Below, in pieces: positions 18,365-53,432 of a DNA stretch of 64,000 nucleotides. The notes beneath the pieces were generated by a model. The model searched no databases. It saw nothing but the letters and a program-made list of their open reading frames with translations, and was not told where the DNA came from. The stretch comes from Acidisoma cellulosilyticum (lineage in GTDB: Bacteria > Pseudomonadota > Alphaproteobacteria > Acetobacterales > Acetobacteraceae). Position numbers and translations under genes: made by a program. The stretch covers positions 248,001 to 312,000 of the forward strand of contig NZ_JAESVA010000003.1 of assembly GCF_020621385.1 (NCBI RefSeq). Direction: 5' to 3'. Every line of letters begins with the position of its first letter. The stretch's first letter is position 1.

Positions 18365-18438
18365 TCACCGAGCGAGAAGATGGAGCGGCCGAAAACAAGG
18401 GCACAATCGATAGAATAAGGGCGCCTGCCTTCACCGTA

Positions 18439-18572
18439 CCAGTCCCTCCGCCGGCATAATCCGGATCAGGTTCCCCGGCGCACCCGAAGGCTTGCCGGCA
18501 GGGTCACCGCGCTGCCTTCCATCCGGAAGCGCCAGCGGTATCTCAGCCCCTTGATGGGGGCCCCCCTTGGTA
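18439..18572 (-). promoter_or_regulatory. TPP riboswitch (THI element) of thiC
   Basis: On the minus strand the conserved blocks appear in order: GGGGCTGAGATACC (about 18537-18550), then AACCTGATCCGGATTATGCCGG and CGGAGGGA (about 18443-18472). Between them is a variable P3 stem. The aptamer ends about 84 nt before the thiC start. No poly-U terminator follows, so control is more likely at translation initiation. Confidence 0.93.
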
Positions 18573-18619
18573 ATCGGAAGCATGAGCCCGCGTCGGCAGG
18601 GCTGTCAACAAGCCTGGCG

Positions 18620-19093: not shown

Positions 19094-19170
19094 TCGTCCC
19101 ACCCTTATACGACCACCGAAAAACTATCCCGTGTAGAACCGCCGACCGCAACCGGCGGCCGTCACGCCTT

Positions 19171-19185
19171 ATTCATCTAGATGTC
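19171..19185 (-). promoter_or_regulatory. Candidate phn operator, copy upstream of phnD
   Basis: On the minus strand this reads GACATCTAGATGAAT, with the 10-bp palindrome CATCTAGATG inside. It matches 14 of 15 bases with the site at 23000-23014 in front of phnG. A poor Pho-box-like pair (CCGTCAC-N4-TATTCAT, 19159-19176) overlaps it. It is likely a PhnF-type GntR operator. Confidence 0.5.
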
Positions 19186-19270
19186 AAAAAGATTGAGGGA
19201 TCTTCGGGCTAGAGAGCCAGCAACCGCGCGCCCACCGTCACAAGGCGCCGATGCGAAGGAATCCGTCACT

Positions 19271-20179
19271 ATGCGCAAACTGCTCCAGGGCGCCGCCTGC
19301 ACGGCGCTGTTCGGCTTGGCGTCCTTGATCGCGACCGGCGCCGCGGCACAAGCCGCCAGCCCCTGCCCGAACGGCGTCATCCGTTACGGCGTCATCCCGT
19401 CCGATGCCTCGGCCGCCTTCGTGCCGCTGTATCACAAGATCGCCCACCTGATCAGCGTCCAGATGGGTTGCCCGGTCGATCTCGAAGTCGGCACCAGCTA
19501 CAATGCGACCATCGAAGCCATGCGCGCCGGCAAGGTCGATGCCGCTGAATTCGGCCCGCTGAGCTATGTCCTCGCTCACCAGCTCGCCGGTGCCGAAGCC
19601 GTTTCCACCTATGCGAATGCCAAAGGCGAGCCCGACACCTATACCGCCAGCGTCGTCACCTGGCCGAATTCCGGCATCACCACCTTGAAGGGCGTTGCCG
19701 GCCATACCTTTGCCTATTCCGATCCGGCTTCGACCTCCGGCCATCTCTTCCCGGCCTTTGCGCTGAAATCCGCCGGGATCGATCCGGACCACGGCGTCAC
19801 CGCGATCTATGCCGGCAGCCATACGGCCAGCTACGAAGCCCTTCTGCATCACAAGGTGCAGGCCGGTGAGATGAACAGCCCCGAGATCCTGTCCGCGACC
19901 TATGCCGGCATCTACGATCCGAAGGACTTCGTCGTCCTCTGGACCAGCCAGCCCATCCCGCAGGATCCGATCACCGTGCGTGATAACCTGCCGCCGGCCT
20001 TCAAGGCGAAGCTGAGCGATGTGCTTGCGCATCTCGACCTCAGCAGCATCCCTGCCGCCGAGCGCAAGGTCGTCGGTCTTTCCGGGAACGGCTATATCCC
20101 GATCAACGACTCCGCCTTTGACGGCATCCGTAGCCTTGTGACGGTGCTGCATCTTGACCTTGCCAAGCTGGCTTCGTGA
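19271..20179 (+). CDS. phnD: Phosphonate ABC transporter binding protein PhnD
   Basis: A 302-residue periplasmic binding protein with a signal peptide (cleavage likely after the AAAQA near residue 26-29). The phosphonate/phosphite/phosphate-binding family pattern is IRYGVIPSDASAAFVPLYHKI, split as IRYGVIPSDASAAF and VPLYHKI, then VDLEVGTSYNATIEAMRAGKVDAAEFGPLSY in pieces. I start at ATG 19271, 10 nt after AAGGA, where the signal peptide begins. Its TGA overlaps the phnC GTG. Confidence 0.93.
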   Translation: MRKLLQGAACTALFGLASLIATGAAAQAASPCPNGVIRYGVIPSDASAAFVPLYHKIAHLISVQMGCPVDLEVGTSYNATIEAMRAGKVDAAEFGPLSYVLAHQLAGAEAVSTYANAKGEPDTYTASVVTWPNSGITTLKGVAGHTFAYSDPASTSGHLFPAFALKSAGIDPDHGVTAIYAGSHTASYEALLHHKVQAGEMNSPEILSATYAGIYDPKDFVVLWTSQPIPQDPITVRDNLPPAFKAKLSDVLAHLDLSSIPAAERKVVGLSGNGYIPINDSAFDGIRSLVTVLHLDLAKLAS

Positions 20180-20946
20180 GCAAACCGCTTATTGAGGTTT
20201 CCGGTCTGGCCATGCGCTACCCCACGGGGCGCATGGCTTTGACGGATACAAGCCTCACGCTGAATGCCGGCGAGTTGGTCGTCATTCTTGGCGCCAATGG
20301 CTGTGGCAAATCGACGCTGCTCCGCTGCGTCGCCGGCATATTGCAGCCGACCGCCGGGCAGGTCCATGTCGCGGGCGAGCCGATGACGGCCCTTGCGGGT
20401 CGTCCGCTCGCCGAAGCGCGCATGGCGCTTGGCATGGTGTTTCAGAACGCCAATCTCGTGAAACGCCGCAGCGTCATCGCCAATGTATTGACCGGCACGC
20501 TCGGCCGCCATCGCAACTGGAAGACCGCTTTGGGCCTTCTGCCGAAGGCCGAACGCCCCTTCGCGCAGCGTTGCCTGGAGGAAGTCGGCCTCGGCAGCTT
20601 TGCCGAGCAACGCGCCGGCACGCTTTCGGGCGGTCAGGCGCAACGCGTCTCCGTGGCCCGCGCCCTGGCCCAACGGCCTTTGGCTTTGCTGGCCGATGAG
20701 CCGGTGGCAAGTCTGGACCCTGAAGCTTCCGAAGAATTGATGGGCCTGCTGCGGCGTCTGGCCCATGAAGACGGGCTCGGCGTGCTGTGCGTGCTGCATC
20801 AGCCCGATCTCGCCCGCCGCCACGCCGACCGTATCCTTGGCATGAAGGGCGGCCGCGTCCAGTTCGACCAGAAGCCAGCGGATGTGCAGGAGGTTGATGT
20901 TTCATCCCTCTACACCAAGCCCGCGCCGGAGGCATTGCCCGCATGA
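20176..20946 (+). CDS. phnC: Phosphonate ABC transporter ATP-binding protein PhnC
   Basis: A 256-residue ATPase with Walker A GANGCGKST, signature LSGGQAQRV and Walker B LALLADEPVASLD, the last typical of the phosphonate-import class. It starts with GTG in a GTGA overlap with phnD and ends in an ATGA overlap with phnE. It powers phosphonate uptake for the C-P lyase encoded downstream. Confidence 0.93.
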   Translation: MSKPLIEVSGLAMRYPTGRMALTDTSLTLNAGELVVILGANGCGKSTLLRCVAGILQPTAGQVHVAGEPMTALAGRPLAEARMALGMVFQNANLVKRRSVIANVLTGTLGRHRNWKTALGLLPKAERPFAQRCLEEVGLGSFAEQRAGTLSGGQAQRVSVARALAQRPLALLADEPVASLDPEASEELMGLLRRLAHEDGLGVLCVLHQPDLARRHADRILGMKGGRVQFDQKPADVQEVDVSSLYTKPAPEALPA

Positions 20947-21764
20947 ATGGTTTCGCACTGAAGACGGTGCCGGCCCCGTCCGAGAAGGGTTCTGCGATGC
21001 CCCGCCGGCGCCTGAACCCGCTCACCTTCCTGTTCATTTTTCTCGGCATCGCGCTGTTTTTGCAATCCGCGATCGTTGTCCACGCAAGGCCGCAGGATCT
21101 GATCACGGGGGCCGCCGGTATCGCCGATATTCTGCGCCGGTCCTTTCCGCCGGATTTCGCAGGCCTGCCGGATGCGCTTTGGCCGGCGCTTGAGACGATC
21201 GACATGGGCCTGTTCGGCACCGCCATCGCCCTCGTCTTCGCACTGCCGGTCGCGCTGCTCGCGGCCCGCAATACCACGCCGGCCAAGCCGCTCTATTTTT
21301 TGTCGCGCGGCCTCATCGCTCTCGCCCGCGTGGTGCCAGATCTGGTCTGGGCACTGATTTTCGTGACCGCCGTCGGCCTCGGGCCGTTTCCCGGCGCGCT
21401 CGCCATCGTCATCCATAGCCTGGGCATGATGGGGCGGCTGTTTGCCGAAACCATCGAGGATATCGACATGGGACCGGTGGAGGCACTGACCATGACCGGC
21501 GCCGGCCGCTTGGCCGTCTTCAGCCATGCCGTCGTGCCGACGGTCATGCCCTCGCTGCTCGGCATCACGCTCTATCGCCTGGACGAGAATATCCGCTCAT
21601 CCCTTATCCTCGGCTTCGTGGGCGCCGGCGGCATCGGTTTCCAGCTACTGACGGCGATGAACCTGTTTCAGTATCGCACCGTGTCCATGCTGCTGATCCT
21701 GACCTTCATCATCGTGGTGGGCGTGGAGCGCATCTCCGCTGCCTTGCGGCAGCGGATTGCGTAA
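20943..21764 (+). CDS. phnE: Phosphonate ABC transporter permease PhnE
   Basis: A 273-residue inner-membrane permease with about six hydrophobic segments. The EAA-type loop is EALTMTGAGRLAVFSHAVVP, followed by the family motif DENIRSSLILGFVGAGGIG. Only one permease is present, unlike the PhnE1/PhnE2 pair of many alphaproteobacteria, so the transporter probably uses a homodimer. Confidence 0.93.
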   Translation: MNGFALKTVPAPSEKGSAMPRRRLNPLTFLFIFLGIALFLQSAIVVHARPQDLITGAAGIADILRRSFPPDFAGLPDALWPALETIDMGLFGTAIALVFALPVALLAARNTTPAKPLYFLSRGLIALARVVPDLVWALIFVTAVGLGPFPGALAIVIHSLGMMGRLFAETIEDIDMGPVEALTMTGAGRLAVFSHAVVPTVMPSLLGITLYRLDENIRSSLILGFVGAGGIGFQLLTAMNLFQYRTVSMLLILTFIIVVGVERISAALRQRIA

Positions 21765-21774
21765 CGGCCCCGCA

Positions 21775-22920
21775 TCAATGCAGGCGGGCAGCGCCTTCGG
21801 CCGAGAGATAGGCCAGCTTGCCGCCCGCGATCGTGGCGACCACATGCGGCGCCGGGTCCCGGCTGACGATCACCATATCGGCGCGCAGACCCTGTGCGAT
21901 CCGGCCACGATCGGTCAGGCCCGCGGCGGCAGCGGGATTGGCCGAAATCAGCGCCCAGCGCGCCGCCAGACCATCCTGGCCGTGACGGTCCGCCAGGATG
22001 AAAGCCGCCCGCAGCATCGCCGGGTAGAAGTAATCGCTCGTCAGGATCTGGCAGAAACCGGCCTCGACCGTCTCGGCCGCGCCCGACCAGCCCATATGCG
22101 ATCCGCCGCGCACGACATTGGGGCTGCCCATGATGACGCTGTCGCCGGCCTCGGTCGCTGCCTTTGCGACCTCGGTGCTCATCGGGAAGTCCGAGATGCG
22201 AGCGCCCATCGCGCGAAAGGCGTCACGATCCGCGACACGCGCGTCATCATGGCTCGCCATCGGAATGCCGGCGCGCTGGGCTGCCTCGGCCATGCGGGCC
22301 AAGGCCGCCGGCACCTCATCGGCGCGCGTGCCGATGGCATTGGCAAGGTCGCGGAAGGCGTCAAGCTTCATGCCCGCACGCTCGCTGTATTTCGCCCCGG
22401 TCGCCGCGTCGGCCATCTTTCGCAGAATGCCGGGCGTATGGTCGTTGAAGGCGAGCAGATGGACCGCCCCCTGTTCGATCGCTGCGAGCGCGAGGTCGAG
22501 CGCCGGCAGATTGAAGGCCTCCCAGCGCAGATGGATGCGCATGTCGCAACTCTGACGCGGGCGGTTTGCGGCCAGCGCCGCCAGCAGGCTGGTCCAGGTT
22601 TCGGCGCTGCGCAGCCCCTTCTCCCAGGACAAGGTCACGCCATGGAAGGTCGTGGTGATGCCATTGGCGAGCAGTTGCGCCTCGGTCTCGGCCACCGCCA
22701 GATCCATCGGGAAGCTGACGCCGGGACGCGGCTGCACTTGCCGTTCGAAGGCATCGCCGTGCAGGTCGATGATACCGGGCAGAACCAGCAGACCCGTGGC
22801 GTCGAAGCGTCGTTCGGGGCCGGAAATCTCGGCAATGACGCCGTCCTGCACACCAATATCGGCGGTAACCAGACCTTGGTCGGACAGCAATGCCCGTCCG
22901 CCGGTGATCGCAAGTTCCAT
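21775..22920 (-). CDS. Variant PhnM-family amidohydrolase
   Basis: A 381-residue amidohydrolase homologous to PhnM, convergent with phnE and divergent from phnG. It has DLHGDAFERQVQPRPGV where canonical PhnM has DLHTDNLERQ, plus AFNDHTPG, ASHDDA and SPNVVRGGSHMGW. PhnM removes pyrophosphate from alpha-D-ribose 1-alkylphosphonate 5-triphosphate before C-P cleavage. A second, canonical PhnM lies at 27498-28634. This copy may have another triphosphate or cyclic-phosphate substrate. A good AAGGAAGG site precedes it. Confidence 0.85.
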   Translation of the reverse strand: MELAITGGRALLSDQGLVTADIGVQDGVIAEISGPERRFDATGLLVLPGIIDLHGDAFERQVQPRPGVSFPMDLAVAETEAQLLANGITTTFHGVTLSWEKGLRSAETWTSLLAALAANRPRQSCDMRIHLRWEAFNLPALDLALAAIEQGAVHLLAFNDHTPGILRKMADAATGAKYSERAGMKLDAFRDLANAIGTRADEVPAALARMAEAAQRAGIPMASHDDARVADRDAFRAMGARISDFPMSTEVAKAATEAGDSVIMGSPNVVRGGSHMGWSGAAETVEAGFCQILTSDYFYPAMLRAAFILADRHGQDGLAARWALISANPAAAAGLTDRGRIAQGLRADMVIVSRDPAPHVVATIAGGKLAYLSAEGAARLH

Positions 22921-22951
22921 GACTTAGCCTTCCTTTTTCGTCGCCCGATCG

Positions 22952-22969
22952 ATGTCAATCGATTGTCAT
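22952..22969 (+). promoter_or_regulatory. Candidate Pho box (PhoB site) upstream of phnG
   Basis: ATGTCAA-TCGA-TTGTCAT matches the two 7-bp direct repeats separated by 4 bp of the PhoB consensus (CTGTCAT-N4-CTGTCAT). It lies in the divergent phnM-variant/phnG spacer and could serve both genes. It fits phosphate-starvation control of a C-P lyase locus. Confidence 0.6.
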
Positions 22970-22990
22970 TGACTTTAGCCGGGCCGGTCG

Positions 22991-23014
22991 TAATGTCTAG
23001 ACGTCTAGATGAAT
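22991..23014 (+). promoter_or_regulatory. phnG -10 element and palindromic phn operator
   Basis: TAATGT (22991-22996) is a plausible -10 with its start point inside the perfect 14-bp palindrome TCTAGACGTCTAGA (22996-23009). The longer motif GACGTCTAGATGAAT (23000-23014) recurs with one change before phnD. Position over the start site suggests a repressor such as PhnF, which is not encoded in this window. Confidence 0.55.
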
Positions 23015-23025
23015 TCTGGGTGACG

Positions 23026-23481
23026 ATGTTGACACAGGACTTCTTGAACCGCCGCCGCACATGGATGGCGACCCTTGCCCGGGCTGACCGCTCGGCGATC
23101 GAGGCACAACTATCGGCAGAACCCGCCTTGCCGGACCACACCCGTCTGCGCGGCCCGGAAGCCGGTCTCGTTATGGTGCGTGGTCGTATGGGCGGCAGCG
23201 GCGCGCCCTTCAATCTCGGAGAGATGACGGTTACGCGCTGCACCATCCGCAATGCGCGGGGCCAGATCGGCCATGCCTATATCGCCGGGCGCGACGGCCA
23301 GAAGGCGGAACTGGCGGCCGCACTCGATGCGGCCTTGCAGGACCCCGAAGACGGCGCTGGGCTTGAGGCGCGCGTCATCGCGCCCTTGGCCGAGGCCTTG
23401 GTCCAGGCAGACAATACGATACGCGCCGAGGCCGAGGCCACGCGCGTCGATTTCTTCACTTTGGCGACGATGCGGTCATGA
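23026..23481 (+). CDS. phnG: C-P lyase system protein PhnG
   Basis: A 151-residue PhnG. The family begins around RRRTWMATLARA and contains GLVMVRGRMGGSGAPFNLGEMTVTRC, seen here as VMVRGRMGGSGAPFNLGE, then GHAYIAGRD. PhnG is part of the PhnGHIJ core complex that, with PhnI, makes the ribose-1-phosphonate nucleotide from ATP. The frame is open far upstream but that part is antisense to the variant phnM. ATG 23026 is chosen because the promoter lies at about 22991. Confidence 0.9.
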   Translation: MLTQDFLNRRRTWMATLARADRSAIEAQLSAEPALPDHTRLRGPEAGLVMVRGRMGGSGAPFNLGEMTVTRCTIRNARGQIGHAYIAGRDGQKAELAAALDAALQDPEDGAGLEARVIAPLAEALVQADNTIRAEAEATRVDFFTLATMRS

Positions 23482-24050
23482 CGCTCGAAAAACCCGGCTT
23501 TATCGATCCCGTCGCCGAGGCGCAGGCCTGCTTCCGCCTGGTGCTGCGCACCATGTCCAGCCCCGGCCAGATCGTCACGCTCGCCAACCCCGTCGCCGCG
23601 CCACCATTGACCCCCGCCACGGCCGCCGTGCTGCTGACGCTGGTCGATGCCGAAGTCTCGCTCTGGCTGGACGAGCCCCTGGCCGATAGCTGGGACTGGC
23701 TGGCCTTTCATGCCGGCGTGGTGCGTGCGACGGATATCGGCTCGGCCGCTTTCCTATGCACGACGAGGCTGCCGCCGCTGGCCGAGGTCTTTGCCGGCAC
23801 GGACGCCGCGCCGGAAACCGGTGCGACCATCATCCTCCAGGTGCCTTCCCTTGAAGGCGGCAAGAAGCTGACCCTCTACGGGCCGGGGCTGGAGACGCCG
23901 ATCGTCATTGCACCGCAGGGCCTGCCCGCGGATTTCGTTGCCCAATGGGAGCAGAACCACCGCATTTTCCCGCGTGGTATCGATCTGCTGCTTTGTGCGG
24001 GTTCTTCATTCTGTGCCCTGCCGCGTAGCGTCAGGATCGGGGAAGGCTGA
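23478..24050 (+). CDS. phnH: C-P lyase subunit PhnH
   Basis: A 190-residue PhnH with FIDPVAEAQACFRLVLRTMSSPG at the N-terminus, seen as DPVAEAQACFRLVLRTMSSPG's core AEAQACFRLVLRTMSSPG, and FPRGIDLLLCAGSSFCALPR at the C-terminus. PhnH is a pyridoxal-transferase-like fold without the cofactor and a structural member of the core complex. It starts in an ATGA overlap with phnG and ends 4 nt before phnI. Confidence 0.93.
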   Translation: MTLEKPGFIDPVAEAQACFRLVLRTMSSPGQIVTLANPVAAPPLTPATAAVLLTLVDAEVSLWLDEPLADSWDWLAFHAGVVRATDIGSAAFLCTTRLPPLAEVFAGTDAAPETGATIILQVPSLEGGKKLTLYGPGLETPIVIAPQGLPADFVAQWEQNHRIFPRGIDLLLCAGSSFCALPRSVRIGEG

Positions 24051-24054
24051 AACA

Positions 24055-25170
24055 ATGGCTTATGTTGCCGTCAAAGGGGGTGAGCGTGCGATCGACGCCG
24101 CTCATGACTGGCTCGCGCGCGTCCGGCGTGGAGCGCCGACCGTTCCTGAAATCAAGACCGACCAGATCGCCGAGCAGCTCGGCCGCGCCGTCGATCGCGT
24201 CATGGCCGAAGGCTCCTGCTATGACCGCGATCTCGGCGCACTCGCCGTCAAACAGGCGCAGGGCGATCTGATCGAGGCCGCCTTCCTGCTCCGCGCCTAC
24301 CGCACCACGCTGCCGCGCTTCGCCTCCTCCCTGCCGGTGGAGACGAGCGCGATGCTGATCCATCGTCGGATCTCGGCGATCTACAAGGATCTGCCGGGCG
24401 GCCAGGTGCTAGGCCCGACCTATGACTACACGCATCGCCTGCTGGATTTCGCACTCGCGGCCGAAGCCGATAGCGGCGTGGCGCCGGCGGCACCGCTGCC
24501 GCCTGCCGAGCCGGATCAGACACCGCCGGCCGTGACGCCGCGCGTGCTCGACATGCTCCACGCCGAAGGGCTGATGGGCGCAGAACCGCAGAGCGACGCG
24601 ACGCCGGGTGACATCACGCGTGAGCCCATGTCCTTTCCGGCCGAACGCGATATCCGGCTGCAGGCGCTCGCCCGTGGCGACGAAGGCTTTCTGCTCGCCC
24701 TCGGCTATTCCACCCAGCGCGGCTACGGCAATAGCCATCCCTTCGTCGGCGAGTTGCGCATGGGCGATGTCTCGGTCGAAATCGAACCGCCCGAGCTCGG
24801 CTTCGCCATCGATATCGGTCGCATCACGCTTACCGAATGCGAGATGGTCAATCAATTCGGCGGGTCTAAGACGGAACCCCCGCAATTCACCCGCGGCTAT
24901 GGGCTGTGTTTCGGCCATGGCGAGCGCAAGGCCATGGGCATGGCGCTGGTTGACCGCGCCATGCGCGCCGAGGAATTGGGGGAGGACGCAACGGCGCCCG
25001 CGCAGGACATTGAATTTGTCCTGTACCACAGCGACAATATCGAGGCGACCGGCTTCGTCGAACATCTGAAGCTGCCGCATTACGTGGATTTCCAAAGTGA
25101 ACTCGAAACGATCCGCGAGATCCGGCGCACATCTCAAAATTCTACGGATGCCGCGGGAGAGCCGCTATGA
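24055..25170 (+). CDS. phnI: C-P lyase subunit PhnI
   Basis: A 371-residue PhnI of normal length, starting MAYVAVKGGERAI. It has the block RGYGNSHPFVGELRMG and the block TECEMVNQFGGSKT. PhnI is the nucleosidase that, with PhnGHL, attaches a phosphonate to the ribose C1 of ATP. The open frame upstream (from 23908) overlaps phnH and is not used. The stop overlaps the phnJ start. Confidence 0.95.
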   Translation: MAYVAVKGGERAIDAAHDWLARVRRGAPTVPEIKTDQIAEQLGRAVDRVMAEGSCYDRDLGALAVKQAQGDLIEAAFLLRAYRTTLPRFASSLPVETSAMLIHRRISAIYKDLPGGQVLGPTYDYTHRLLDFALAAEADSGVAPAAPLPPAEPDQTPPAVTPRVLDMLHAEGLMGAEPQSDATPGDITREPMSFPAERDIRLQALARGDEGFLLALGYSTQRGYGNSHPFVGELRMGDVSVEIEPPELGFAIDIGRITLTECEMVNQFGGSKTEPPQFTRGYGLCFGHGERKAMGMALVDRAMRAEELGEDATAPAQDIEFVLYHSDNIEATGFVEHLKLPHYVDFQSELETIREIRRTSQNSTDAAGEPL

Positions 25171-26018
25171 ACGGCTATAACTTCGCCTATCTGGATGAGC
25201 CGACCAAGCGCATGATCCGCCGCGCCATCCTGAAAGCGGTCGCGATCCCCGGCCATCAGGTGCCCTTCGGCGCAAGGGAAATGCCGCTGCCATATGGCTG
25301 GGGCACCGGCGGCATTCAGGTGACGGCCGCTATCCTCGGCGCGGACGACGTGCTGAAGGTGATCGACCAAGGTGCGGATGACACGACGAACGCTGTTTCC
25401 ATCCGGCGCTTCTTCTCCCGCGTCGCCGGGGTTGAAACCACAACGCGGACAAGGGATGCCAGCGTCATTCAGACCCGCCACCGCATTCCGGAAACGCCGC
25501 TGCGGGATGATCAAATTCTCGTCTATCAGGTGCCGTTGCCGGAACCGCTGGCGAAGCTGGAACCGAGCCGGGCGGAGACCAAGCAGATGCATGCGCTGGC
25601 CGATTACGGCCTCATGCATGTGAAGCTGTACGAGGATATCGCGCGCTTCGGCCATGTCACCATCTCCTATGATTATCCGGTGATGGTGAATGACCGCTAT
25701 CTCATGTCGCCTTCGCCCATTCCGGCCTTCGATACGCTGAAGATGAACCGCATGCCGGCGCTTCAGCTATTCGGCGCCGGGCGGGAGAAGCGCATCTATG
25801 CCGTGCCGCCCTATACGACGGTCCGGCCGCTGGATTTCGACGATCATCCCTTCGCGCTGATCCGCGCACCCCATGCCTGCACGCTCTGCGGTGCGACCAA
25901 CAGCTACCTGGATGAAGTCGTGACCGATGATCGCGGCGGCCGCATGTTCATCTGTTCGGACACCGATTACTGCGCGGACAGACGCGGCGATGCCGCGAGC
26001 GAAGGAGATGCGGCATGA
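25167..26018 (+). CDS. phnJ: Carbon-phosphorus lyase PhnJ
   Basis: A 283-residue radical-SAM enzyme that breaks the C-P bond, giving an alkane and 5-phosphoribosyl 1,2-cyclic phosphate. The essential cysteines C238, C241, C263 and C269 have the same spacing as E. coli PhnJ (241, 244, 266, 272). The N-terminus GYNFAYLDEPTKRMIRRAILKA is typical, seen as YNFAYLDEPTKRMIRRAIL. Overlaps phnI and phnK by 4 nt each. Confidence 0.96.
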   Translation: MNGYNFAYLDEPTKRMIRRAILKAVAIPGHQVPFGAREMPLPYGWGTGGIQVTAAILGADDVLKVIDQGADDTTNAVSIRRFFSRVAGVETTTRTRDASVIQTRHRIPETPLRDDQILVYQVPLPEPLAKLEPSRAETKQMHALADYGLMHVKLYEDIARFGHVTISYDYPVMVNDRYLMSPSPIPAFDTLKMNRMPALQLFGAGREKRIYAVPPYTTVRPLDFDDHPFALIRAPHACTLCGATNSYLDEVVTDDRGGRMFICSDTDYCADRRGDAASEGDAA

Positions 26019-26788
26019 CCCTTCCTCTGCTTGAAGCGCATGACCTTCAGCTCAATTTCGGGTCTATCCGCGCGCTCGACCATGTCTCCATGGCGCTTTG
26101 GCCGGGCGAGGTTCTGGCCATCGTCGGCGAAAGCGGCTCCGGTAAAACCACGCTGCTGAAAGTGCTCTCGGGCAGCGAAAGCCCGGATCACGGCCAGGTT
26201 CTCTACCGCGATCCGGAATTGGCGCTGCACGACGTCCACGCCATGGCCGCCCCCCGACTGCGCGCTTTGCATCGCTCGGACTGGGGTTTCGTCCAACAGA
26301 ATCCGCGCGATGCCTTGCGCATGGGCGTCTCCGCCGGCGGCAATGTCGGTGAGCGTCTCATGGCCCAGGGCGCGCGCCATTACGGCTCGATCCGTTCGTC
26401 CGCGCTCGACTGGCTGCGCGAGGTCGAAATCGACCCGCAGCGGATCGACGATCTGCCGCGTACCTTTTCAGGCGGCATGCTGCAGCGCCTGCAGATTGCC
26501 CGCACGCTGGCGACCCATCCGCGCCTTGTCTTCATGGATGAGCCGACCGGCGGGTTGGATGTCTCGGTCCAGGCGAGATTGCTTGACCTTATCCGTTCCC
26601 TGGTCTCCCGCCTCGGCCTCGCCGTCATTCTGGTGACGCATGATATCGCGGTCGCGCGCCTGCTCGCCGGACGCATCCTGGTGATGCGCCGCGGTCAGGT
26701 GGTCGAGACGGGCCTGACGGATCAGGTGCTGGACGATCCGCAGCATCCCTATACGCAGCTTCTCGTCAGTTCGGTGCTTCAGGCATGA
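26015..26788 (+). CDS. phnK: C-P lyase ATP-binding protein PhnK
   Basis: A 257-residue ABC-type ATPase with Walker A GESGSGKTT, signature TFSGGMLQRLQIAR and Walker B LVFMDEPTGGLD. PhnK binds the PhnGHIJ core rather than a membrane permease. Sequence such as FVQQNPRDALRMGVSAGGNVGERLM is typical, here the core VQQNPRDALRM is visible. Co-translated with phnJ and phnL. Confidence 0.94.
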   Translation: MTLPLLEAHDLQLNFGSIRALDHVSMALWPGEVLAIVGESGSGKTTLLKVLSGSESPDHGQVLYRDPELALHDVHAMAAPRLRALHRSDWGFVQQNPRDALRMGVSAGGNVGERLMAQGARHYGSIRSSALDWLREVEIDPQRIDDLPRTFSGGMLQRLQIARTLATHPRLVFMDEPTGGLDVSVQARLLDLIRSLVSRLGLAVILVTHDIAVARLLAGRILVMRRGQVVETGLTDQVLDDPQHPYTQLLVSSVLQA

Positions 26789-27501
26789 TGAACACGGCCG
26801 GCCATCCCATGCTGAAAACCCATGGCCTCAGCAAATCCTTCACCCTGCATCTGCAGGGCGGCACCACCATGCCGGTGCTGGAGAATGTCGAGCTGACCGT
26901 CAATTCCGGCGAATGCGTTGTTCTGTCAGGGCCGTCCGGCGCCGGCAAATCCACCCTCATGCGCAGCCTTTACGGCAATTATCGCGTCGGCCAGGGCAGC
27001 ATTCTCATCCGTCATCGGGATGATTGGGTCGATCTGGCCCAAGCCGATCCCCGCCGCATCCTAGCCGTGCGCCGCGATACGCTCGGCTATGTCAGTCAGT
27101 TCCTGCGCGTCGTGCCGCGCGTGCCGACCATCGAAATCGTGGCCGAGGCGCTGACCATCCGCGGCGCGGATCACGCGGAGGCGATCACCCGCGCGCGCAG
27201 CCTGCTGCTGCGCCTCAACCTGCCGGAGCGGTTGCACGGCCTGCCCCCGGCCACCTTTTCAGGTGGCGAGCAGCAGCGTGTGAACCTCGCCCGCGGCTTC
27301 ATCGGCGGCCATCCGATTTTGCTGCTGGATGAGCCGACCGCCTCACTTGATGCTATCAACCGTGACGCGGTCGTGGGATTGGTGGCGGAGGCGAAAGCCG
27401 CCGGCACCGCGATCCTCGGCATCGTTCATGATACGCCGACGCGCGACGCCATCGCTGATCGTCTTTTTAAACTTTACCCCGCCCAGATGGCTGCCGCATG
27501 A
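26785..27501 (+). CDS. phnL: C-P lyase ATP-binding protein PhnL
   Basis: A 238-residue ABC ATPase. Walker A is GPSGAGKST, signature FSGGEQQRVNLARG and Walker B ILLLDEPTASLD. The block DTLGYVSQFLRVVPRVP is characteristic of PhnL. It assists formation of the phosphonate nucleotide. ATGA overlaps join it to phnK and phnM. Confidence 0.94.
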   Translation: MMNTAGHPMLKTHGLSKSFTLHLQGGTTMPVLENVELTVNSGECVVLSGPSGAGKSTLMRSLYGNYRVGQGSILIRHRDDWVDLAQADPRRILAVRRDTLGYVSQFLRVVPRVPTIEIVAEALTIRGADHAEAITRARSLLLRLNLPERLHGLPPATFSGGEQQRVNLARGFIGGHPILLLDEPTASLDAINRDAVVGLVAEAKAAGTAILGIVHDTPTRDAIADRLFKLYPAQMAAA

Positions 27502-28634
27502 CCCAGATTGTTCTGACAAACGCCACGATCATTCTGGAGGATGACAGCCTTCGCGGCACTGTCGTGGTGCAGGACGGCGTGATCCGGGACATCGTCTACG
27601 GCAAGGTCGTGGCCGCCGGCGCCGTCGATCTTGACGGCGATATTCTGATGCCCGGCATCATCGACCTGCATACGGATAATCTGGAGCGGCAGGTGCTGCC
27701 GCGCCCCGGCGCGCGCTGGCCGTCGCGCTCGGCCTTTCTGGCGCATGACGCGCAATGCGCGGTTGCCGGTGTCACCACCGTGTTCGATGCGCTTTGCGTC
27801 GGCAATCTCAATTTCGACAATGAAGATCGCATCCGCACCTTCCAGGACGGCGTCACGGATCTGACGGCACTCGCCGAAACCGGATTGTTCAAAGCCGATC
27901 ACCTGCTGCATCTGCGCTGCGAAATGCCGGCGACGGATATGCTGCGCCTCGCGGCCCCGGTGCTGGATCATCCGCTGACACGCATGGTCAGCCTGATGGA
28001 CCATACGCCCGGCGTCGGCCAATACGCGGATTTGGAGCGTTTCCGGCAACGCCGCGCGGTGGACGGCACCTCGCTCGCCCAAGTCGATGCGGAGATCGCG
28101 GAATTACAGGCGCAGCGCACCCGTCTGCGCGCGCCCAATCGGCAGGCCCTGCTGGAACTGGTCCGCGCCCGCAACCTCGTCATCGCAAGCCATGATGATG
28201 AGACGATCGAGGAGATCGAGGCCAATGTCGCCGACGGCATCGGCATCAGCGAATTCCCGGTGAGGCTGGCGGCCGCCAAGCGCGCGAAGGCGCTGGGCAT
28301 GACCGTCATCGCCGGCGCGCCCAATATCGTCCGGGGCGGATCGCATTCGGGCAATGTCTCGGCCGCCGACCTGATCGCGGCAGATGCCGTGGATGCTCTG
28401 GCCTCGGACTACGTGCCCCCCGCTTTGCTGGAAGCGGCCTTCGCCATCGCCGATAGCGGCGTGCCGCTGCACCGGGCCATCGGCTTCGTGACCTCTGGCC
28501 CCGCTCGCATGGCGAGGCTTGACGATCGGGGGCGCATCGCCCCGGGTCTGCGCGCCGATCTGGTCCAGGTGCGCCGCGTCGGCTCGCTTGCCGCCGCCGT
28601 CGCGGTCTGGCGCCAGGGCCAACGCGTCGCATGA
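27498..28634 (+). CDS. phnM: PhnM, ribose alkylphosphonate triphosphate diphosphatase
   Basis: A 378-residue amidohydrolase with the canonical PhnM motifs MPGIIDLHTDNLERQVLPRPGARWP, seen as IIDLHTDNLERQ and PRPGARWP, SLMDHTPGVGQ, ASHDDET and GAPNIVRGGSHSGNVSA. It removes pyrophosphate ahead of PhnJ. This is the operon copy. A divergent homologue lies at 21775-22920. Confidence 0.95.
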   Translation: MTQIVLTNATIILEDDSLRGTVVVQDGVIRDIVYGKVVAAGAVDLDGDILMPGIIDLHTDNLERQVLPRPGARWPSRSAFLAHDAQCAVAGVTTVFDALCVGNLNFDNEDRIRTFQDGVTDLTALAETGLFKADHLLHLRCEMPATDMLRLAAPVLDHPLTRMVSLMDHTPGVGQYADLERFRQRRAVDGTSLAQVDAEIAELQAQRTRLRAPNRQALLELVRARNLVIASHDDETIEEIEANVADGIGISEFPVRLAAAKRAKALGMTVIAGAPNIVRGGSHSGNVSAADLIAADAVDALASDYVPPALLEAAFAIADSGVPLHRAIGFVTSGPARMARLDDRGRIAPGLRADLVQVRRVGSLAAAVAVWRQGQRVA

Positions 28635-29179
28635 GCGGGCTTCTGGTCCTCGTCGTCGGCCCCTCAGGCTCCGGCAAGGATACGCTGCTGGCGGGCGCCG
28701 CCGCCGCGTTGCAGGACGATCCGCGCTTCGTCTTCGCCCGCCGCACCGTGACGCGGGAAGCGGCGAATGAGGATCATGACACGGCGTCCGTGCCCGCATT
28801 CCTGGCGCGCCAGGCAGCCGGCGATTTCGCGATCACCTGGGAAGCGCATGGGTTGCATTACGGCGTCCCGGCCCAGAATCTGCGCGCGCTCGCCGATGGA
28901 CAAACCGTCGTCATCAATGTCTCCCGCGCTGTCATTGCCGAGGTCGCCGCGCGCTTCCCGGTCGCGGTTGTGGAAATCACCGCGCCGATCGCATTGCGCA
29001 GCCAGCGCCTCGCCGACAGGCATCGCGAGACGGCCGCCGATATCGCCGAGCGGCTGTCGCGCGAAGTGCCGCTGCAGGCCGAGCGCCTGCACAGCATCGT
29101 CAATGACGGCAGTATCGCCGAGGGCATCGGCGCCCTGGTGCGGTTGTTGAAGGACCTGCAGCCCGCCCTCTGTCGCTGA
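28631..29179 (+). CDS. phnN: Ribose 1,5-bisphosphate phosphokinase PhnN
   Basis: A 182-residue guanylate-kinase-like enzyme with Walker A VGPSGSGKDT and the RTVTREA substrate segment. It phosphorylates ribose 1,5-bisphosphate to PRPP, the end of the phosphonate pathway. The intervening PhnP phosphodiesterase is not in the window. ATGA overlap with phnM. Confidence 0.92.
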   Translation: MSGLLVLVVGPSGSGKDTLLAGAAAALQDDPRFVFARRTVTREAANEDHDTASVPAFLARQAAGDFAITWEAHGLHYGVPAQNLRALADGQTVVINVSRAVIAEVAARFPVAVVEITAPIALRSQRLADRHRETAADIAERLSREVPLQAERLHSIVNDGSIAEGIGALVRLLKDLQPALCR

Positions 29180-53293: not shown

Positions 53294-53432
53294 CAATAGA
53301 TCTCCTAGATCAGAACTTGCGCGCTGTGTGAGGGCTGAGGCACGACGCCGCCTGACACAAGCAAGCATCGCGCCACAGGAGAAGTCTAGATGGAAAATAA
53401 CGCTTGGGTTAATCCTTGGGCGTGGTCAAGCC

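Follow-up and report, generated by a model that had tools for sequence, protein, structure and literature searches.

Probable PhnF operators before the phnDCE and C-P lyase operons of Acidisoma cellulosilyticum, with the phnF gene displaced

Introduction

Repressors of the HutC subfamily of GntR proteins recognize the consensus GTMTAKAC, often with additional half-boxes 7 to 12 nt away from its centre (PMC4494728). In Mycobacterium smegmatis, PhnF, a GntR-family protein encoded divergently from a transporter operon, represses this operon, phnDCE, through two sites in the shared promoter region, as summarized in a review (PMC7866108). NagR (YvoA) was crystallized on the operator GTGGTCTAGACCAC, and its dre sites are palindromes centred on TCTAGA with a GTCTAGAC core (PMC4333415). 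Here we analyse two nearly identical 15-mers built on TCTAGA in a 64,000-nucleotide stretch of the Acidisoma cellulosilyticum genome (contig NZ_JAESVA010000003.1, positions 248,001 to 312,000; hereafter the window), one upstream of phnDCE, the other at the start of the carbon-phosphorus (C-P) lyase operon, whose first gene is phnG.

This locus shares features with each of these systems. Two congeners (G299 and G301) have the same layout as the M. smegmatis divergon described in the review cited above; unlike there, phnF is no longer part of the divergon in three of the five species of the genus, and the operator type is also used by the C-P lyase operon. The idealized dre site of NagR differs in having GTGG/CCAC outside TCTAGA, and it serves N-acetylglucosamine genes. 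Nearer relatives are the phnF-phnG divergons of Acetobacteraceae and other Proteobacteria, where an operator of the GTCTAGAC type lies close to the start of phnG and is often preceded, 8 bp upstream, by another unit; in contrast to them, this genome has no phnF beside phnG, and the PhnF of the genus lies outside the Acetobacteraceae PhnF clade. Among the part of the matching open-access literature covered by titles and abstract openings, no paper dealt with a PhnF operator from this group. Arrangements in which transport is joined to C-P lyase through HutC-type GntR operators are already known, and the less ordinary part here is a displaced, possibly replaced, regulator that no longer has its autoregulatory site.

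We estimate a probability of about 0.83 that both sites are operators of a PhnF protein (a GntR/HutC repressor) encoded on another contig, C1, which would co-repress phnDCE and C-P lyase.

Results

An earlier note, made from the sequence alone, had described the two 15-mers with their positions, their strands and the single base by which they differ, and all of this was found in the sequence (Table 1). With start codons placed by our own reading of the frames at 19271 for phnD (the best candidate) and at 23026 for phnG, the sites end 85 bases and 11 bases 5' of these codons, in agreement with its placing them upstream of phnDCE and at the start of phnG. While the pair before both phn operons stands, a second TCTAGA directly upstream in the phnG site had been overlooked. 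The phnG operator is a double one, GTCTAGACGTCTAGAT at 22995-23010; it sits within the 105-bp gap between the divergent phnM and phnG and could serve both genes.

Allowing up to two mismatches, the pattern has seven matches in the 6.0 Mb genome: two exact (these sites), one with one mismatch, inside a histidine-kinase-like open reading frame on contig C7, and four with two. The same pattern read backwards has three. The genome-wide search that the earlier note had proposed finds exact copies of the pair nowhere else, and at up to one mismatch no non-phn promoter of this genome carries a copy; the motif is thus not common in such promoters, which the note had said would refute its reading. Its remark that the rarity of CTAG makes the motif striking fared less well: CTAG is indeed under-represented (26 occurrences where trinucleotide counts predict 48), but for TCTAGA there is no such deficit (5 occurrences, 3.2 predicted), and we dropped enrichment of TCTAGA as a signal in its own right. 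The bare statistics of the pair, tried first as proof, were likewise insufficient. In the window, 1967 pairs of 15-mers differ at no more than one position; three Markov nulls gave 792-851 such pairs, and 14/15 identity between two random regions of these sizes arose in 1 of 400 null draws. Because near-identical pairs are more than twice as frequent as in the null, a single shared word is poor evidence in this genome.

Conservation carries the evidential weight instead, since both sites are exact in all five genus genomes compared: this one (G000), G299, G300, G283 and G301. Each has exactly two copies of GACRTCTAGATGAAT, on opposite strands and 2.6 to 3.9 kb apart, one before phnD and one before phnG. 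A third exact copy was found in none of the five, and allowing one mismatch adds only the coding copy in G000. Across four of the genomes (G300 was omitted, being close to G000), the phnD site has a mean ungapped identity of 1.00, compared with 0.28 to 0.48 for its flanks, and the phnG site one of 0.96, compared with 0.31 to 0.57 for its flanks; with all five, flank identity is 0.29 to 0.51 for phnD and 0.38 to 0.59 for phnG. The phnG operator is double throughout, following TGT[CA]TAGAC[AG]TCTAGATGAAT. The abundance of near-identical 15-mers in the window would suit an explanation by chance, or by ancestry that left a functionless resemblance. Given that both sites are kept in five species while their flanks have diverged, and that a cognate motif occurs across Proteobacteria, we regard this explanation as very improbable.

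That motif was derived with the window excluded. From the order we fetched the 30 phnG loci with the highest scores, and from named genomes 80 phnJ loci; phnG upstreams were readable in 102 of the 110, and 84 were left after near-copy removal. Expectation-maximization on the 68 of these whose fetched locus contains a phnF of at least 100 bits gave gTctA.ttGTCTAGACAA.T, with a log-likelihood of 615.5 compared with 72 to 83 in three shuffled sets. At 12 bits or more the motif is present in 64 of the 68 phnF-linked phnG upstreams and in 2 of the 16 others, which supports the PhnF-type operator proposed in the earlier note, although the contrast is partly circular, and to that extent counts against our reading, the 68 being the training set. 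Four phnF-linked upstreams lack it (L097, L098, L104 and L129). The 16 include gammaproteobacteria with a diverged phnF inside the operon, and in seven such loci (L119, L123, L130, L135, L141, L143 and L152; five within the 16, two removed as near-copies) the motif precedes phnF instead. The two positives among the 16 are L078, with no phnF in its locus, and L126, a 3.2 kb contig.

When the window was scored with this motif, the phnG site ranked first (26.3 bits) and the phnD site second (15.6 bits); the maximum in a 6 Mb Markov null was 17.7 bits. The third locus, the shorter match before livJ at 53384, reaches 7.8 bits, and a search of the other four congeners that allowed up to two mismatches did not find its 17-base context. 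Low score and lack of conservation make it look like chance, as the earlier note had suspected. In a genome-wide sequence model built from 66 relatives' sites, the phnG site was again the top locus (E 0.12 and 0.28 on its two strands), followed by C2:514183 (E 1.1) and C9:147144 (E 1.4). The phnG site also has the form described for HutC operators: GTCTAGAC at 22995-23002 fits the GT-N4-AC palindrome of the GTMTAKAC type exactly and also agrees with the NagR operator GTGGTCTAGACCAC, and the second TCTAGA, 8 bp away, fits the extra half-site. Before phnC, and thus in the transporter operon, the motif reaches at least 13 bits in 8 of 37 loci with a phnC match (L113, L115, L119, L123, L130, L133, L137 and L140), a proportion that makes a common operator type for transport and C-P lyase a recurrent design, not the rule.

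Some matches lie elsewhere. The C9 locus (147144-147164, L189), a GTCTATACATATA site, stands just past the end of another UTRA regulator gene and is perhaps the operator of that regulator. Matches of 13.9 to 23.7 bits away from recognized phn starts occur in L080, L093, L094, L099, L101, L116, L122, L144 and L148 and may be chance, other targets or sites of other HutC regulators. In L073 (1-6405), an Acetobacteraceae metagenome-assembled genome, the gene order is phnF, phnD, phnC, phnE and then phnJ, and a PhnF-like site, weak at 13.7 bits, precedes phnJ by about 40 bases; the PhnD of this locus is the closest to that of the window among the fetched loci compared (301 bits, under 100 elsewhere).

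The genome encodes eight proteins with UTRA-domain matches, of which one, on contig C1, exceeds the PhnF cut-off (Table 1). The earlier note had supposed a repressor not encoded in the window, and the only protein over that cut-off is indeed encoded outside it. Its gene is a solitary one, flanked by a hydantoinase gene in convergent orientation and by a gene for dienelactone hydrolase. A phnG over cut-off is present in 119 of the 299 genomes of the order. In 108 of these, a phnF over cut-off is no more than 2.5 kb away; in 7 the distance is 2.5 to 10 kb, in 2 (this genome and the congener G283) the two genes are unlinked, and in G122 and G198 (phnG at contig end) the search did not find a phnF. 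Many Acetobacteraceae relatives have phnF between phnM and phnG. In G299 and G301, phnF is divergent from phnD with the phnD site between the two, and these PhnF proteins are 62-71% identical to C1 PhnF over most of their length.

A different HutC-type GntR protein might read both sites. HutC regulators generally use GTMTAKAC-like sites (PMC4494728), the eight UTRA proteins of the genome offer other candidates, and G299 and G300 hold a second, sub-threshold PhnF-like protein. However, C1 PhnF alone among the eight has the VNRHT recognition helix common to most phn-linked PhnF proteins, and it alone exceeds the family cut-off; a relative of it adjoins the phnD site in two congeners, which leaves a different reader improbable.

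The displacement of phnF can be traced in part. The hydantoinase gene that flanks phnF in G000 also adjoins phnF in G299; it was not seen in the short G301 stretch examined. Because this gene stays with phnF in both genomes, the break probably fell between phnF and the operator, which was left with phnD. A tree of PhnG plus PhnH has G000, G300 and G283 on one side of a split (support 89) and G299, G301 and the outgroups on the other; within the genus, G301 branches deepest (96). This separation means that one loss of phnF-phnD adjacency is needed. The direction and cause of the rearrangement are presumed. Upstream of the displaced phnF (C1, about 207850; L016) we noted an inverted repeat, TCAGACGTT-GTTTTT-AACGTCTGA, which in G300 is altered and still partly paired; it may be either a terminator of the upstream gene or a regulatory site.

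The regulator may also have been exchanged. PhnJ of the genus (three species) is nested in Acetobacteraceae, with support of 98 for the whole and 92 for an inner group with six of them. PhnF of the genus (four species) falls outside the Acetobacteraceae PhnF clade with support of 100 (100/99 under a mixture model). Placing the genus PhnF at PhnJ's position was rejected (approximately unbiased test, p 0.0015), but forcing it into one clade with all Acetobacteraceae PhnF used was not (p 0.346); several long branches are in play in these trees. Since the first constraint is rejected and the second is not, a replaced regulator is likely, not proven.

Both sites were also considered in the light of promoters and phosphate control. 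All five genus genomes have TTGAC[AT]-N16-hexamer starting 31 bases (29 in G301) before the phnG site, and the presumed -10 hexamers (TAATGT, TATTGT, TTGTAT), which overlap the first operator unit, are weak across the genus. A mechanical promoter scan near phnG did not report this putative plus-strand promoter; its one match, on the minus strand at 22999-22972 and directed toward phnM, has its first hexamer within the phnG operator, so phnM may share the control as a third target. Before phnD the scan found nothing. A Pho-box-like direct repeat, TGTCA-N6-TGTCA, lies just before the presumed phnG promoter and is unique in the window on both strands; it is also present in G300, and none was seen within 60 bases before the site in G299, G283 and G301. 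A second de novo motif found upstream of the operator in relatives, tGTCAT.aAA..TTCAt, has a Pho-box-like look; we set it aside as evidence for PhoB because in many loci we read it as extending over the start codon of phnF and its ribosome site. Its best match in the window (14.5 bits) lies at 23006-23025 on the minus strand, across the right edge of the phnG operator, in what we read as the phnG ribosome-site region.

The Pho box consists of two TGTCA-like half-sites 11 bp apart with a free spacer, and in Escherichia coli phosphate controls the phn genes. PMC9947105 mentions the pho box of the E. coli phn operon. In the main rival to our reading, the phnD site is such a PhoB box (TATTCAT-CTAG-ATGTCAA, with a half-site spacing of 11 bp), either by itself or in overlap with a PhnF site, and only phnG has a true PhnF operator. 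It is the main rival because the phnD site is the weaker of the two and has Pho-box-like spacing. In the window, [TG]TCA-N7-[TG]TCA occurs six times on both strands, with two overlapping occurrences within the 168 bp before phnD, and a 10.6-bit match of the second motif (19160-19179) overlaps the phnD site. However, the CTAG spacer, which should be free, is conserved in all five genus genomes; the outer Pho-like half-site (CGTCACG) is absent in G283; the phnG copy has the same 15-mer without a GTCA half-site; and phnF adjoins the phnD site in two congeners. We consider a PhoB site at phnD unlikely on this balance.

Table 1. Sites, promoter elements and phn genes of the locus, with the regulator gene; positions are those of the window unless a contig is named.
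Feature	Position	Strand	Remarks
phnD site, GACATCTAGATGAAT	19171..19185	minus	perfect 10-bp palindrome CATCTAGATG; probable PhnF operator
phnG site, GACGTCTAGATGAAT	23000..23014	plus	second unit of double operator
whole phnG operator, GTCTAGACGTCTAGATGAAT	22995..23014	plus	two TCTAGA units, spacing 8 bp
putative phnG promoter, TTGACT-N16-TAATGT	22969..22996	plus	weak -10 overlaps first operator unit
Pho-box-like direct repeat, TGTCA-N6-TGTCA	22953..22968	plus	possible PhoB site; just before presumed phnG promoter
phnF	C1:207102-207794	minus	TIGR02325 221.2 bits, cut-off 156.8
phnD, phosphonate-type substrate-binding protein	19271..20179	plus	TIGR01098 194 bits, over cut-off
phnC, ABC ATPase	20176..20946	plus	TIGR02315 262.6 bits, just below cut-off 266.1
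phnE, permease	20943..21764	plus	TIGR01097 282.7 bits, over cut-off
phnM-type diphosphatase	21775..22920	minus	divergent from phnG; NF011987 419 bits, over cut-off
phnG, first C-P lyase operon gene	23026..23481	plus	TIGR03293 159 bits, over cut-off
remaining C-P lyase operon, phnH to phnN	23478..29179	plus	phnH, phnK, phnL over NCBIfam cut-offs

The phnD product also matches TIGR03431 PhnD at 171 bits, below the cut-off of 261. No NCBIfam model matched phnI or phnJ, which are named from synteny and relatives; of the last two genes of the C-P lyase operon, one matches an amidohydrolase family over its cut-off and the other an AAA domain below it. Two phnM-type amidohydrolase genes are present, the divergent one and another within the C-P lyase operon (27498-28634); in G301, no phnM match was seen between phnE and phnG in the stretch fetched. 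Outside the phn genes, a probable thiamine pyrophosphate (TPP) riboswitch precedes thiC (18425-18577, minus strand; 47.7 bits, E 1.3e-8, below the Rfam gathering score of 54.3); one of its arms carries an insert of about 50 bases, which is unusually long.

Discussion

Several observations, besides the circularity noted above, weigh against both sites being PhnF operators. The phnD core is ATCTAGAT instead of GTCTAGAC and lacks the outer G and C of the HutC consensus, and its spacing suits a Pho box. Its 15.6 bits were reached by 4 positions in the 6 Mb null, the genome-wide model did not list it at E up to 10, and even the phnG site has only E 0.12 there. Among relatives, three phnF-linked loci (L097, L098 and L104, with phnF and phnM in front of phnG and oriented like it) have no motif anywhere in the locus, and 29 of the 37 loci with a phnC match show none before phnC. 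Unlike most relatives, the displaced phnF has no site at its own promoter: in the 400 bp upstream of the phnF genes located elsewhere in G000, G300 and G283, the best motif score is below zero.

By score alone the phnD site is indistinguishable from the genomic background, and its core departs from the consensus, so it is conservation and context that lead us to call it a PhnF target. It has no GT-N4-AC palindrome, and the extra half-site is present only as a remnant GAC. Its membership among HutC operators thus appears less secure than that of the phnG site, and it would not be a canonical one. On the combined sequence evidence, we still regard the two sites as very probably bound by PhnF.

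For binding, repression, the phnG promoter and the effector, we infer the following scheme. At phnG, PhnF bound to the double operator over the presumed -10 and start region would block RNA polymerase, and its position between phnM and phnG could let it act on the divergent phnM as well. At phnD, the single, weaker site would bring the transporter operon under the same repressor. Release of PhnF by an effector, probably either a phosphonate or some breakdown product, would turn on uptake and C-P lyase together. In the line leading to this species, a chromosomal rearrangement would have left the operator with phnD and carried off phnF, whose own promoter thus no longer has a recognizable operator.

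A fuller history can be proposed tentatively; we think it somewhat less probable than its opposite. A resident, phnG-linked PhnF would have been replaced by a PhnF from another lineage, divergent from phnDCE, while the old phnG operator persisted and is today identical, or almost identical, to the phnD site. A later rearrangement would then have separated phnF from the operator in three of the five species, ending autoregulation. If this is true, the genus offers a natural series in which replacement of a regulator is followed by loss of negative autoregulation, with the targets intact.

Our analysis would assign the operons for phosphonate uptake and C-P bond cleavage to one repressor, whose gene, not being adjacent, would be missed by annotation based on gene neighbourhood. 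With phnF at the operator in two species of the genus and away from it in three, the effect of losing autoregulation may be directly comparable among these five.

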